Assembly (NCBI GenBank): GCA_022825825.1
Contig: JAJDWA010000062.1
Span: 124,001-188,000 of the forward strand
Source: Candidatus Poribacteria bacterium
GTDB taxonomy: Bacteria > Poribacteria > WGA-4E > WGA-3G
DNA length: 64,000 nucleotides
Direction: 5' to 3'
Positions within the stretch are counted from its first letter, which is position 1, and every line of letters starts with the position of its first letter. Below are positions 15,753 through 23,097 of the stretch, in pieces. The notes beneath the pieces were generated by a model, which had not been told where the DNA came from, did not search any database, and worked only from the letters and a program-made list of their open reading frames with translations. The translations under genes were made by a program, and so were the position numbers.

Positions 15753-16877
15753 TTATGGCTTATAGATTGTTGTTTCGGGATAGTAGCGTGCCCAAGCGAA
15801 CCAGTAAATATTGACAGCGGTCAACCGTTCCAAACGCGTCCCTTTCTCTTTACCCGATATTGCCACACCTGTGACCAGATTCCAGCGTGTTCCGGTGTTG
15901 TCCTCTACAAAATGTCCATCTTGAGATCGAAAGGTTCGCACATCTTTTCCAATGTTTCGCTTAAAGACAGCCGTTGCGAATGACACTTTATCGTGAAAAA
16001 TCAGCAACGGCACTTCACCGACCATATCGTTAATCACGGCCGTTTTGGCAAAGTGTGTTAATGGATACGCGCGAAACTGTGTATTATAGGGATCGACAGA
16101 ACCGCTTCGTCCATCAGCACCGTCTTGCCCAGCAGTGCCGGGTTGTCCATCAGCTCCATCTCTACCATGGTCGCCATCTCTGCCCGGAGCACCATCTTTT
16201 GTCTGGACTTGGACTCCGATCACAAGGGACTTATTAGGCAGTCTCTTATCGGTGTATCTTGTCCCACTCACACCTGCGCGTTGGCTTTTATGATAGTCTG
16301 CGTAATTATCGCGCTTGAAGCTTTCGCGCGCACCTACAGACAACACTTTTGTCTGAGGGTAATTTGTTTGCCATGTTTTCCACGCTATCTGTGGCATGGA
16401 AGCGAGTGGTTTCAACTGCTTGCCTTTCAGTGGTCCCTGTATCGCTTCCCCAGTGATGTGAGACCAGAGAGAACGGGTTTGGTGGTCGTACATTAACAAC
16501 GCATCACGCCACAATTTACCGCTGACACCGAATGTATAGGTTTTACCGTCAAGTTCCCGGCTATACACGATAGCCGTTTTGCAGAGCGGTCACCATGTGG
16601 TAGCGATTTTGTTTCCGCCGACAACATCGTTCACAATCTCGTGTCCGTTCAGCAGATAGAGTGAGTAGGCATGACTTTCACCGTTGAAGGTTACACCAAT
16701 CACAGGGGCATCCGCGTCTAATTTTGCTTTGGCAGCAGGCACAAATTGCGGTTTTGTGATGGCGGGGATTGCATCAAAGGGTAGCAGGGTTCGGATTGGG
16801 TCTTTATCGTCCTCTGCTGCGGTTGCACTGAGGGAGGCGCCGAGTAATAGTGTGAGAATGAGGATATAGTTTTTCAT
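15753..16877 (-). CDS. DUF3179 selenoprotein with collagen-like insert (UGA read through)
   Basis: Reading through one TGA (complement at 16590-16592) gives 374 residues. There is a signal peptide (residues 1-20), then a first DUF3179 half whose usual T-W-C-P-L-C motif reads T-T-W-U96-P-L-C99. The downstream YSRELDG, FGVSG and SLWSHITGEA segments are all typical of the family. Residues 229-261 are eleven Gly-X-Y triplets inserted between VIGV and the RAYPL of a second DUF3179 half. A 7-bp stem CGGCTAT/ATAGCCG follows the TGA. AAGGA precedes the ATG. The protein is exported; its reaction is unknown, but U-x-x-C suggests redox or metal chemistry. Reading it as two broken genes is unlikely because frame and family continuity are perfect. 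Confidence 0.88.
16095..16193 (-). repeat. collagen-like Gly-X-Y coding segment
   Basis: Eleven uninterrupted triplets (GAP GRD GDH GRD GAD ...) with Asp/Arg-rich X and Y positions. It lies at a turn of the second DUF3179 half, so it may form a solvent-exposed trimerising loop. Confidence 0.85.
16558..16576 (-). promoter_or_regulatory. candidate bacterial SECIS hairpin of the DUF3179 gene
   Basis: Coding strand CGGCTAT-CGTGT-ATAGCCG: a perfect 7-bp stem and 5-nt loop with G in second position. Twenty nucleotides separate TGA from the loop. Confidence 0.7.
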
Positions 16878-16991: not shown

Positions 16992-18485
16992 ATGGAACCA
17001 CCGAAAGTATTTGCCTCATATTCTCATGATTCAGATGAACACAAACAGTGGGTGCTAAAACTTTGTAATAAACTCGTTGAAAACGGTGTAGATGTGATGT
17101 TAGATCAGTGGGATGTACGCTTGGGCACAGATCAGACATTTTTCATGGAGAAACTTAGTACTGCTGATAGAGTTCTTATGATATGCACAGACGCTTATGT
17201 AAAAAAGGCAGATAATCGTGAGGGTGGCGTGGGATATGAAGGACTTATCATCACTGAGCAGATTGCTGAGGACGTGAAAACTGATAAATTTATACCAGTA
17301 ATTCGCCAATCCTCAAATGAAAGGAAAATGCCGATTTTTTTGGGAAAGAGGCAATATATCGAATTCACTGATGACGACAGATTTGATGAAAAGTTCAATG
17401 AATTGCTTCATGACATTCATGGTGTACCAATTATTTCAAGACCTCCGTTGGGGGAAAATCCACTTACTAAACAGTCATCTGAATTTGAAACCTCAGATCA
17501 TAACCTCCCCGAAATTCCTGACAAGATTGAATCGGTTTCCGATGCTTATGAGTCTGCATTTGAGTTTGCAAGAGCCGATGATACACTTGGTTGGCAAGAA
17601 CTTGTTGGAAAAATTCGATCTAATGTGCAAAATTCATTAGAGCAATTGAAACAAGAAAATTTAAATAGTGGAAACTTGGAAAACGCCGAACAACGCATTG
17701 GGGTAGTGGATAAAGCGATTAATATTATTTCACCTCTCATTTCTGTAGCATTGGCAGGGGTCAAATCGCAGAATCAACATTTTAACAATCAAACATTTAT
17801 ATTTGAAAGTTTACGTAGTATAGATGGATGGAACCGTAACTCTGGCGATGAGTACCGTATAGGTATTCCTAATTTCCTTGGATATGTTTACCAGAGTCTG
17901 CACGGGAGTATTAGTCTTAACACAAATCAATTATCATTAGCACTTGATTTAGCACGATTCAAGGTTCCTATAGTTAGAAGTCCACAATCACAACACGATA
18001 TGGTATGGAAAATCACTATGCTTATGGGGTGGTCTCAGGCACTCAACCAGAAATGTACAGAAAATTGGCAATATTTGGCAGACGCTTATGAGAGATGGAA
18101 GTGGTTACGTGACGTATTTGAAGATAATTCAACCTATCTTACATCCCTCGTTGCTTACTACATGGCACTAAAGATACATGAATGGGCGGTAAAAATTGCT
18201 TCCAAAAGCAAGGAAAGTCTAAATGCACAATACCTCAATGTGCCATTAGATTTTTTATTTGAGGAATCCGAAATAATAGAGCGTGCAACTTCGCTTCTCC
18301 TTCGCACCCTAAAAGTATCAGAACTTTGGGAATGTGTAGGTGTAAACATAGATCAGATGAGGGATTCATGGGAAATGTCAATTGAACAGTATAGCAGTCA
18401 ATTATTACATTTCTATGATTCAAGTCATCTGGAATTTCTTAGCAAGATCCCTCGTCAATATTTAACTTTTTTTGACGTTTTGTAA
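16992..18485 (+). CDS. SEFIR (TIR-like) domain protein, probable defence effector
   Basis: Residues 5-140 of this 497-residue protein form a SEFIR/TIR-like domain: VFASYSHDSDEHKQWV, then DVMLDQWDV, DRVLMICTDAYVKKA and GVGYEG, matching bacterial SEFIR proteins. These domains mediate signalling or NAD-directed activity in immune systems. The remaining 350 residues are mostly helical with no recognised motif and could sense infection. AGGAG at 16977-16981 supports ATG 16992. It converges on the type III restriction gene with 59 nt between stops, so it belongs to the same defence island. Whether it acts alone is unknown. Confidence 0.8.
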   Translation: MEPPKVFASYSHDSDEHKQWVLKLCNKLVENGVDVMLDQWDVRLGTDQTFFMEKLSTADRVLMICTDAYVKKADNREGGVGYEGLIITEQIAEDVKTDKFIPVIRQSSNERKMPIFLGKRQYIEFTDDDRFDEKFNELLHDIHGVPIISRPPLGENPLTKQSSEFETSDHNLPEIPDKIESVSDAYESAFEFARADDTLGWQELVGKIRSNVQNSLEQLKQENLNSGNLENAEQRIGVVDKAINIISPLISVALAGVKSQNQHFNNQTFIFESLRSIDGWNRNSGDEYRIGIPNFLGYVYQSLHGSISLNTNQLSLALDLARFKVPIVRSPQSQHDMVWKITMLMGWSQALNQKCTENWQYLADAYERWKWLRDVFEDNSTYLTSLVAYYMALKIHEWAVKIASKSKESLNAQYLNVPLDFLFEESEIIERATSLLLRTLKVSELWECVGVNIDQMRDSWEMSIEQYSSQLLHFYDSSHLEFLSKIPRQYLTFFDVL

Positions 18486-18544: not shown

Positions 18545-21193
18545 TTACACCTCCTCCGCAGAGGTAACAACCCCATAATTAACATTTAGCGCATCACAGA
18601 AATGCCGCCTACCACAGTCTATCTTCCATTCTTCATGGTGGCGGAGTTTTTCCGAATCCGTTGTACTTTTCGTTTCTATGACCAGATACAGTTTTTCTTT
18701 ACCTATGGGGTCGCCGTGTACATCAAGATCATCTTTGACTATCGCCCAATCTGGATTGTAGTTTCCTATCGGAGTTGGTACGGTGAAGAAAGCAGGAAGT
18801 TTCAAGTAAAGTATAATATCCTGTCGTTTCTCTAATCCCTCAACAAATTGCTTTTCAACTTCCGAATCCCAAATCACGTGATCATAAATGGAACGCGACG
18901 CGGGTTCCATGCAGTCCTTCCAACTTTCCAGTTCACAGTCGAATTGGCTCATTTCATACACTTCACCGATTTTTTCGTACTTTATGCCATCAATTAGTTG
19001 CGTTATAATTTTCTGTCTGATTTTCTCAACCACGATCTTAGCGAATTCAGGAGGGTTGTCTAAAGCAGCTTGCTGGTTTTGGGTACGCTTAAGAATTTCC
19101 AAGAGGGTTCGCCGTGTTAGTTTCATTGCTGGTGTTGTATGTGCCAAACGATGCTCAATTGACTTCAAGACGTTTGCCTTACCCGATAAACTGTATGTCA
19201 AGCTTCCATCCGCAATGAGCTCAACTTCAAAAGCGTTATCTTTATTAACTTTCAATTCCCCCCTCCTTATTGATATTTGCGGAAGTTCAATGTCGGTGTC
19301 ATCTAATATTTTTACAACATCTTCAATCAGTTTTTCTGTGTCAATTTGCACCTTGTATCGCGTTTTGTGTTTTATACGATCCCAGAGTGCCTCAAATTCC
19401 GGTTTAAGTGTCATTGCTTTTTTTAGTTTTATTGGACCACGTTCTCTTGCATTTTTCGGTTTGGGCATGCTATCACCAGTTCCAAACTCATCCTGAACTT
19501 CGGTTTGAAGTTCTCGAACATAATTGGTATAACTTTCGTTGGCAACGACAGTAAGCACGTTAAGTTTTTCGTCATGCACACGTTTTCCCTCTTGATTGAC
19601 AGCAAGGCGTACACCACGACCAATTTCCTGTCGTTTTTTCATATCAGAAACTGTCTGGTTCAACGTGCAAATCTGGAAGACGTTCGGACTATCCCACCCT
19701 TCACGGAGTGCAGAATGTGAAAAGATAAAACAGGTCGGTTCCTCAAAAGACAAAAGACGTTCCTTATCTTTCATAATCAATTGGTAAACCTCGCGATCCT
19801 TTTCTGCATCGCCTTTGGTATCTTCGTAAACAAGTTCTTCTTTTTCCGTTTGGCTTTTGGCTTTTGCGAAATAGGCGGCTTGTACATCTTCAGGTTGTTT
19901 TTCTCGCCATTCTGAGTACCTCTCTTCTTGTTTTAACTCATTAAAACATTCGTCAAAGAGTTTGCGAATGATTGGGTCTTTTCCTGCATAGTTGTCAACT
20001 CTATCAATAAAAAAGAGCGAGAGCACCTTAAGACCGGTATCTTTAAGCTTATTCTGTTTCCGAAAGTGTTCCTCAATTGTATAACGAATTTGTGCCTTAA
20101 AAATTGCTGTTTTATCAGCACCATGCGTGTCGCCAGTTTTTAAAACCTCGTTATTATCAAAATGCACCTCACCCCATCTAACGTTAATTTCTCTAATCCG
20201 ATAGCCTTGATACTGAGGCAGATTCGTCTTTGTCTCTAAATCATCGCCTTTTTTAAACGTAAGTGTCGTCTGCTTTGCCGTGTTATTTTTCATGAGTTTA
20301 TGCACTACAAGTTTTGCTGTCACTCGACTTTTTTGGCTTTGAACACTCTTAACATGAACAAAAGCAAGATTTGTATTTGCGCTCTCTTCAACACCTGCAA
20401 CCTCTATCCTTTTTACTAAACCCTCACGATAAGCGTCATAGGGCGTTAAGCAGTAGACTCGATTGTGAGGGGTCTTATGTGTCGCACTATATCTCAATGC
20501 AAACAGTGGGGAGAGACTGGAGAGAGCTTCCACACTGAGGTCACTTTCCATCCGCTGTGGTTCATCTAATATCAGAATCGGACGAGTCGCCCGGATAAAA
20601 TTCATCGGAATATCCCCTTGCAATCGATCAGTGCTTTTGTGAATCACGTTTTTTGAAGGTTGATTGAATGAGGCCATTGTTATAACCATAATTTCAACAC
20701 TATCGGATAACGCAAACTGGCGGACTTGTGACAACTTCTCGGAATCGTAAACATAATAACGATATGGGATGTTGTCATATAACTCTTTAAAATGTGATTC
20801 TGTCATTTCAAGCGTTTTTAGCACACCCTCTCTAATCGCAACGGAAGGCACTACGACAATAAACTTACGCATTCCGTAGTTTTGAAAAAGTTCCAGCACA
20901 GTACGCAAGTAGATATAGGTTTTGCCTGTGCCTGTTTCCATCTCAACAGAAAAGTTCGGAAATCCGTTTGTGGAAAACTCGCCCACCTCTATTCCGTTTG
21001 CCTCCTGAATTTCTTTTAGACGATCACTTATTTGTTCAGGATCTAAGTCAAGGCGGTTGGATATAGCAGAAAAGTTTGATTCCCCACTAAATTGTAGGGT
21101 TGTCCGGACAGGGATTTGTCCTTCAAACAATTGGACAACGGCATCAATAGCATCCCGTTGGTAGTCTTGGTTAGCGTCAAATTCAAATTTCAT
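18545..21193 (-). CDS. res: type III restriction enzyme Res subunit
   Basis: The 882-residue protein has a superfamily 2 helicase core: Walker A ETGTGKT near residue 90, DEPQ (DEAD-like motif II) near 215 and an Arg-finger segment QEIGRGVRLAVN in the second half. A C-terminal PD-(D/E)xK nuclease follows, seen as YNPDWAIV and LVIETKS near residues 820-855. This is the standard type III Res layout: ATP-driven translocation and cleavage near the Mod recognition site. ATG 21193 begins the homology; the upstream TTG at 21220 adds nine residues without a ribosome site. It lies 48 nt downstream of mod. Confidence 0.88.
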   Translation of the reverse strand: MKFEFDANQDYQRDAIDAVVQLFEGQIPVRTTLQFSGESNFSAISNRLDLDPEQISDRLKEIQEANGIEVGEFSTNGFPNFSVEMETGTGKTYIYLRTVLELFQNYGMRKFIVVVPSVAIREGVLKTLEMTESHFKELYDNIPYRYYVYDSEKLSQVRQFALSDSVEIMVITMASFNQPSKNVIHKSTDRLQGDIPMNFIRATRPILILDEPQRMESDLSVEALSSLSPLFALRYSATHKTPHNRVYCLTPYDAYREGLVKRIEVAGVEESANTNLAFVHVKSVQSQKSRVTAKLVVHKLMKNNTAKQTTLTFKKGDDLETKTNLPQYQGYRIREINVRWGEVHFDNNEVLKTGDTHGADKTAIFKAQIRYTIEEHFRKQNKLKDTGLKVLSLFFIDRVDNYAGKDPIIRKLFDECFNELKQEERYSEWREKQPEDVQAAYFAKAKSQTEKEELVYEDTKGDAEKDREVYQLIMKDKERLLSFEEPTCFIFSHSALREGWDSPNVFQICTLNQTVSDMKKRQEIGRGVRLAVNQEGKRVHDEKLNVLTVVANESYTNYVRELQTEVQDEFGTGDSMPKPKNARERGPIKLKKAMTLKPEFEALWDRIKHKTRYKVQIDTEKLIEDVVKILDDTDIELPQISIRRGELKVNKDNAFEVELIADGSLTYSLSGKANVLKSIEHRLAHTTPAMKLTRRTLLEILKRTQNQQAALDNPPEFAKIVVEKIRQKIITQLIDGIKYEKIGEVYEMSQFDCELESWKDCMEPASRSIYDHVIWDSEVEKQFVEGLEKRQDIILYLKLPAFFTVPTPIGNYNPDWAIVKDDLDVHGDPIGKEKLYLVIETKSTTDSEKLRHHEEWKIDCGRRHFCDALNVNYGVVTSAEEV

Positions 21194-21241
21194 TTTTCTC
21201 TTTTTTGGCGTAATTTGCAAGCGAAACTTGCTACAGAAAAG

Positions 21242-23097
21242 TCAGATTGTTTTGAGACGGCATTGCAAAGCAAGGTTTGCAGCGAGCGTATCATCTAACG
21301 CAATATCACGGCAGATAAACACAGAATCTTTTGATAAGTCCAAACTTTCTATATCTGTTTCTGTTAGTTGTTCATCTAAACAGATATGGAGTGATTGTGT
21401 CCCATTAGGTGTAGTAATGCAAAAAACGGTGTTTGTTGTGAGTTCTTTAACGGGTTGAATTGCACTGTCCAGCGGGTATCCTTCCTTGAGAATAATTTCA
21501 TAGAGAACGTCCTCTGCAAGCCATCCTTCTCGGAGTGGGTCAAGGGTCCCTTCTAACTCACTGAAAAGAGTCGGTTTTTCATCGGTTTCGGAATTGCTTT
21601 CAGTCTCATAATTTGATGGTGAGAGTTTAAAAACGCGAAATCCGGACGATTCGGAGAAATTCTGACAGACGCGCCGAATTCGTTCTTTGCCAATCTCATC
21701 GATAGTTTCAAAACCTGCTTTACGTCCTGCAGATTTTTCAGGTGTGGGTTCGGGGAGTTGAACCATGATGTATTGCCTATTACCGTTATCCTCTTGATTA
21801 AGTTCCAAAACAGCTTGTGCTGCTGTACAAGAACCTGCAAAAAAGTCTAAAACAATAGAATCAGAATTCGTGCTGAATTGGAGTAGATGTTTGATTAATC
21901 CAACAGGTTTAGGGTTACTGAAAATACCATCAGAATCGAAAATCTCTCTAAGTTGCCTTCTACCTTTGGGATTCTTTTCTACTTTAGTTAACAAACTTCG
22001 AGGTACCCTTTTAGATTCGTTCAAGTAAATTTTCTTTTCTACCTGCCATTCCCCATTCTGTTTTTTCCTGAAAACAATTCTGTCTTCGTCTTTTAATTTT
22101 AAGAAACCGGTTTCTTTTTGACCCCATTCCTTGTAAACCATTGTACCATCAGGACACTCAATTTCATATCGTAATCCCTCTGCAGGATTGTCTGGTCGCA
22201 TGGGTTCAAAAACACTAGTTTTATAAGGGCCACGCGTTTCATAGTAATCGTCTTTTTGTTTAAATGCAGTTTTTTCTGTTTCAGTAAGTGGGCGTCTTAG
22301 CCTATCAATCGCATGAAGGTTTTTCGCATAAGAAAGAATATATTCATGGTCAGTTGCAAAATATTTAGAATCATTACCACCACCCCCGTGTCGTTGCCAT
22401 ACTACCTGCTGAAGACAATTTTCTTCACCAAAAATCTCGTTCAGCATAAGCCGAAGGTTGTATACCTCCCGATCGTCAATGCTTACAAAGATAATGCCAT
22501 CATCGGTAAGCAGTTGACGTGCTAAAAAGAGGCGTGGATACATCATAGATAGCCAAGCGGAATGATAGCGACCACTCGTTTCTGGATTGGTAGTTTGCAA
22601 ATTGCCTTCTGAATCGACTTGTCCAGTCAATTGAAGGTAGGTGTCTAACGGCTTTTTATAGTTGTCGGGATAAATAAAGTCCCCGCCAGTATTGTAGGGT
22701 GGATCAATGTAGATAGCTTTGATACGGCCGAAATAGGGTTTATAGAGGAGCTTGAGTACCTCAAGATTGTCGCCTTCAATAAAGAGGTTTTGGGATGTCT
22801 CAAAATTTAGGGAGTCGTCATGGTCAGGTTTTAACGTCGCCTCGGTGGGGATGTTGAGTAGACGGATAGCGTTACGTTTGCCTGCCCACGTGAAGCGGTA
22901 AGTTTCGCTTTTTTCTATTTCGTTAACAGATTCTGTTAATACCCCCCCCCAATTTCACGAAGTAGTAAATTATTAAGTTTTTCAGGGTCAATCTCGCCTT
23001 CGGTAAGACATTCGGGGAAGAGCTGCTTAAGTTGTTTGAGTCTTTCCTCGTTGGGAGTCGTGGTGGTTTTTTGGACTTTATCAATAGTTTTTGTCAT
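21242..23097 (-). CDS. mod: type III DNA methyltransferase Mod, frameshifted in a G9 tract (phase-OFF)
   Basis: From ATG 23097 the frame runs 49 codons, enters nine G (22942-22950) and meets TAA at 22936-22938, leaving 53 residues. With one more G (or two fewer) the frame joins an intact 3' part, giving about 618 residues. Beta-class motifs are present: IEGDNLEVLK, catalytic DPPYN at about 132-136 and SAM-binding DFFAGSCTAAQAV near 380, with the target-recognition region between. A mononucleotide run near the 5' end of a type III mod gene is a classic phase-variation switch. A sequencing error in the run is the alternative. Without Mod, Res should also be inactive. Confidence 0.85.
22942..22950 (-). 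repeat. poly-G tract (nine G on the coding strand) within mod
   Basis: A run of nine identical bases about 150 nt into the mod gene; slippage by +1 or -2 would restore the reading frame. Confidence 0.85.

Follow-up and report, generated by a model that had tools for sequence, protein, structure and literature searches.

Probable selenocysteine at a UGA codon of a DUF3179 gene in Candidatus Poribacteria

The DUF3179 gene at positions 15753..16877 (minus strand) of the window, that is, the whole 64,000-nucleotide stretch of a Candidatus Poribacteria contig analyzed here, appears to encode a selenoprotein in which the UGA at codon 96 is read as selenocysteine (Sec). We put the probability of this reading at roughly 0.93: the conservation of the TGA, the restriction of the aligned position to Sec and Cys, the selection acting on the gene, a covarying SECIS and the presence of the dedicated machinery, taken together, make Sec insertion near certain. 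At the level of comparative sequence analysis, coding through the TGA, exchange of Sec for Cys, a bSECIS and the machinery are all well established. Mechanistically, SelB would bind the hairpin located 13 nt downstream of the UGA, and Sec-tRNA-Sec would thereby be delivered to codon 96; a full-length 374-residue protein with the sequence T-W-Sec-P-L-C would then be made and, presumably, exported.

Is this, then, a discovery? The initial annotation had supposed that no selenoprotein of this family had been published, and this supposition is incorrect. DUF3179 (PF11376/pfam11376, UxxC/T) appears among the prokaryotic selenoprotein families tabulated in reviews from 2022 and 2026 (PMC9312934, PMC13188914), whose entries for the family credit it to Zhang and Gladyshev (2007, Nucleic Acids Research), from an Olavius algarvensis symbiont. 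Because the family is already in print, the novelty is low, and the gene in the window is a well-supported addition to a known selenoprotein family, not a discovery. It shares with the published DUF3179 selenoproteins the Pfam family and the type of motif (Sec-x-x-Cys), and differs from them in belonging to a phylum-wide clade of Poribacteria (65/65 Sec), some members of which carry a collagen-like insert. The spread throughout Poribacteria, the covariation evidence, the lead toward a Rieske-like fold and the insert may be new. Our search of the literature found no paper on the biochemistry of DUF3179. The comparison of Sec and Cys forms presented here is independent and large, and it confirms that this little-studied family holds true selenoproteins.

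The reading frame itself is simple. It runs on the minus strand from an ATG at 16877, immediately preceded by a Shine-Dalgarno-like AAGGA, to a stop codon ending at 15753, and its 374 codons are interrupted in frame by a single TGA (codon 96, 16590..16592, read as 16592-16590), which occupies the first position of the U/C-P-L-C motif in the context ATTW-U-PLCKTAIVY. With the TGA treated as a residue, the protein scores 260.3 bits against the PF11376 profile (Pfam; cut-off 27), the match consisting of two stretches that flank the collagen-like insert, and it contains the T-[WYF]-[CU]-P-L-C motif after HEIVND, as is the case in DUF3179. Translation and Pfam thus bear out the claim of the initial annotation that a DUF3179 frame is split by one TGA at the first Cys of CPLC; its coordinates were right as well, and the strand, which it left unstated, is minus. 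The two halves of the protein are repeats of one another, homologous according to hhalign (probability 99.9, E 1e-35). The first (16332..16715, minus; residues 55-182) contains HEIVND and U96-P-L-C99; the second (15756..16235, minus; residues 215-374, including the insert) has no CPLC motif. The N-terminus, MKNYILILTLLLGASLSATAA, is signal-peptide-like by inspection, with the putative signal peptide MKNYILILTLLLGASLSATAAED at 16809..16877 (minus), and some relatives possess a lipobox-like FGC, so that the selenoprotein is probably exported.

Could the TGA be a true nonsense mutation, or a sequencing error, in a pseudogene whose product would be a 95-residue fragment? Translation table 11 reads TGA as a stop, and two separate ORFs are called at this locus; annotation of this kind cuts such genes in two. 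Yet 69 of the 85 Candidatus Poribacteria genomes searched, a count that includes the genome of the window, have a DUF3179 match interrupted by precisely one TGA, and this same TGA is shared across several of the phylum's families and orders, so that the search for TGA at the same codon in homologues that had been proposed at the outset gave a clear positive result. The nearest named genomes that bear an orthologue are Candidatus Poribacteria metagenome assemblies. Among the 84 sequences extracted from the phylum, 65 have W-U-PLC, 3 have W-U-HLC, and the remainder have Cys; the Sec form is accordingly the rule in most of Candidatus Poribacteria. The sequence downstream of the TGA has not decayed in relatives, which would have spoken for a pseudogene; on the contrary, when the window gene is compared with its close relatives (Nei-Gojobori), dN/dS is about 0.04-0.12 in the part upstream of the TGA and about 0.04-0.20 in the part downstream, so both sides are under similar purifying selection. 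Given also the conserved hairpin with its compensating changes (see below), we consider the chance that the gene is a pseudogene to be negligible.

The exchange between Sec and Cys extends well beyond the phylum. Sec forms are present in Chloroflexota, Candidatus Anammoxibacter (Planctomycetota), Nitrospinota, Marinimicrobia, Acidobacteria (Acidobacteriota) and one Bacillota assembly, and across 165 homologues, a count in which some genomes were entered twice because two collections contain them, the position aligned with the TGA is occupied by Sec in 96 and by Cys in 69, and by no other residue. When the Sec/Cys label is mapped on the homologue tree, 5 changes suffice, compared with approximately 51 for shuffled labels. 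Two Cys sequences, from Candidatus Scalindua (L107 and L108), fall within the Sec clade together with the Sec sequence of Anammoxibacter, a placement that suggests loss of Sec. The Cys-type DUF3179 proteins of haloarchaea, Nitrosopumilus, Chloroflexota and Actinomycetota belong to the same family and share the CPLC motif; they differ in having Cys in place of Sec, with Tyr or Phe, not Trp, as the usual residue before it, and in mostly lacking the SECIS hairpin. As a separate observation, Trp precedes Sec in every Sec homologue fetched (TWU), and the residue before Cys is Trp in only 7 of the 69 Cys homologues. Furthermore, a second, divergent Sec-type clade (L055, L056 and L057), characterized by W-U-H-L-C and a shortened pairing stem, occurs among the phylum's more distant members.

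The putative bSECIS hairpin (16558..16576, minus) starts exactly 13 nt past the TGA and consists of a 7-bp stem, CGGCTAT with ATAGCCG (16576-16570 with 16564-16558), closed by the loop CGUGU (16569-16565), just as the initial annotation had described it. According to the published rules, a bSECIS has a loop of 3-9 nt, a stem of 4-16 bp, a G in the first two loop positions, a distance of 16-37 nt from the UGA and an MFE of at most -7.5 kcal/mol (PMC13188914), and the present hairpin conforms to all of these, with a 5-nt loop, a 7-bp stem, an invariant G at loop position 2, 20 nt from the UGA to the apical loop, and an MFE of -15.2 kcal/mol for a 48-nt stretch. The folding z-score is modest (-1.86); the case for the SECIS rests on covariation, not on energy. 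With the peptide fixed, draws of synonymous codons for the window sequence yield 7 of 7 pairs in 1.6% of cases. For the 73 distinct Sec sequences, the mean number of pairs is 6.85 out of 7, compared with 4.47 when synonymous codons are shuffled with all peptides unchanged (sd 0.12; maximum 4.90 of 2000), and therefore the stem is not explained by the protein sequence. All 7 pairs form in 65 of these 73 sequences, and in nearly all Sec sequences the stem with its 5-nt loop begins 13 nt past the TGA.

Moreover, the two arms of the stem change in step across lineages (CGGCTAT/ATAGCCG, CGGGAAT/ATTCCCG, CTGGAAT/ATTCCAG, CGGGTGT/ACACCCG), so that the proposed comparison of hairpin conservation yielded both conservation and compensatory change. 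In a covariation count over 27 diverse sequences, 95.8% of the cells are paired, against at most 47.6% in registers slid by 1-3 columns, with 35 double-change cells, compared with 11.5 in shuffles, and a covariation score of 0.49, compared with 0.16. Two further measures for the same 27 sequences, the number of pairs with a double change and the number of pair types, are no higher than in the shuffles, as coding sequence leaves few of the seven pairs free to vary. At the SECIS position, the Cys homologues mostly form 2 or 3 of the 7 pairs. The two Scalindua sequences (CPLA) still form 7/7 and 5/7, pairing like a relic left after the loss of Sec.

The frame could also be opened without the Sec machinery, if general recoding or suppression led to TGA being decoded as another amino acid (Trp or Cys). 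Any decoding of the TGA would indeed open the frame; nevertheless, where the aligned residue is not Sec it is always Cys and never Trp, the neighbouring genes are open under table 11, the SECIS hairpin is conserved, and the genome encodes SelA, SelB, SelD and tRNA-Sec, all of which makes this possibility very improbable. On the grounds of phylum-wide conservation, selection and hairpin covariation, we reject both a pseudogene and a general recoding of stops. The tRNA-Sec gene (78.7 bits) directly adjoins that of SelB on contig 66, SelA is on contig 75, and SelD, on contig 51, has an in-frame TGA of its own in CAG-U-ASKL, at a residue known to be selenocysteine in SelD selenoproteins, and therefore a second gene of this genome appears to use TGA as Sec. 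The wing domain of SelB was detected in 65 of the 69 TGA-bearing Poribacteria genomes. Outside the phylum, SelB turned up in 14 of 18 genomes with the Sec form and in 14 of 23 with the Cys form; this contrast is weak, and several of the assemblies may be incomplete.

What could the function of such a protein be? The initial annotation proposed a redox or metal-active U-x-x-C center, a pattern that does not hold throughout the family: the first position is invariant as Sec or Cys. The second Cys, on the other hand, is replaced by Ala in UPLA (L106, L132) and CPLA (L107, L108) homologues. Thus, the family keeps the first residue, not the pair, and a simple UxxC disulfide exchange cannot be universal. 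Since only the first residue of the motif is kept, a selenol/thiol redox center at residue 96 is favored, although the motif may have either a redox or a metal role. We favor, at about even odds, the view that the DUF3179 protein is an exported selenol/thiol redox protein, in which Sec96 would be the reactive residue, active outside the cytoplasm, C99 would be the resolving or supporting thiol in most members, and the second domain, which has no motif, would be structural or would bind a partner. Export and redox chemistry, and with them a substrate and an electron donor, are what we infer for it.

The main competing view of the function, which we regard as rather unlikely, holds that Sec96 is a metal ligand, with U/C96, C99 and the near-invariant His79 of a Rieske-like repeat 1 holding a metal or an unusual cluster. 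The AlphaFold model is confident (mean pLDDT 87.6 for the whole protein and 95.9 for repeat 1) and consists of two repeated beta-domains, in the first of which a beta-strand ends at Sec96. When this model was used as a whole-chain Foldseek query, Rieske domains were the only credible matches among solved structures (prob 1.00, E 0.011), and the isolated repeat 1 retrieved Rieske domains again (prob 0.94, E 0.18, TMt 0.59). In addition, H79, E80, N83 and D84 are highly conserved, and in the predicted hairpin (strands 81-86 and 89-96 with a two-residue turn), residue 79, usually His, would be located opposite residue 96, as judged from predicted secondary structure and not from a measured distance. 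Against a metal ligand, the E-values of the Rieske matches are only 0.01-0.2 (TMt about 0.5-0.6), C99 may be Ala, and H79 is Gln or Arg in some members. Neither Pfam nor profile comparison supports a relationship: none of 59 DUF3179 members matches the Pfam Rieske domain (PF00355), hhalign against the Rieske proteins of the same genome gives a probability below 1%, that is, no signal, and homology to Rieske domains by sequence is accordingly rejected. The likeness is thus confined to a weak resemblance of beta-domain folds in Foldseek and a C-P-x-[HC] turn; the Rieske cluster ligands C-x-H and C-x-x-H, including the second His ligand, are absent from DUF3179, where the motif is C-P-L-C, and DUF3179 is a tandem repeat.

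A broader version of the structural argument, which we consider unlikely, sees in DUF3179 a Rieske-like fold in tandem whose Fe-S ligand loops have been replaced, the C-P-x-H loop having become U/C-P-L-C, with selenium serving as a metal ligand or else as a redox selenol. If true, a selenium site on a Rieske scaffold would be of a kind that is not described in the literature searched. The predicted two-repeat fold, with only Rieske-like neighbors, offers a concrete point from which to look for the reaction. A search by sequence for relatives of DUF3179 with a solved structure returned only collagen-like or chance matches, and none with the family profile. In the viral fold library, the best match to the DUF3179 model is BFVD A0A1V0SD44, an uncharacterized giant-virus protein of Indivirus (249 columns, E 1.6e-7), so the predicted fold may occur in viruses too.

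The collagen-like Gly-X-Y insert (16092..16193, minus; residues 229-262) interrupts repeat 2 within its first hairpin turn and is disordered in the AlphaFold model. Such inserts vary in length; the 15 orthologues (out of 65) that have one fall into two separate clusters in the tree. The insert is the only convincing collagen match found in the genome; a second match was rejected as a probable antisense artefact, since it lies over a Pro/Glu-rich ORF.

The gene has no conserved operon partner, and clustering of its neighbors yielded background synteny only. TlpA-like thioredoxins occur near a few Cys-type genes but were dismissed as partners, not being consistent. The flanking SDR and phytanoyl-CoA-dioxygenase-like genes are on the strand opposite to that of the DUF3179 gene. 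In the same part of the window, an ORF at 16992-18485 (plus strand, 497 aa) that starts with MEPPKVFASYSHDSDEHKQWVLKL looks, by eye, to be of the TIR/SEFIR type, and two ORFs at 18545-22630 (minus strand) resemble, again by eye, Res and Mod of a type III restriction-modification system.
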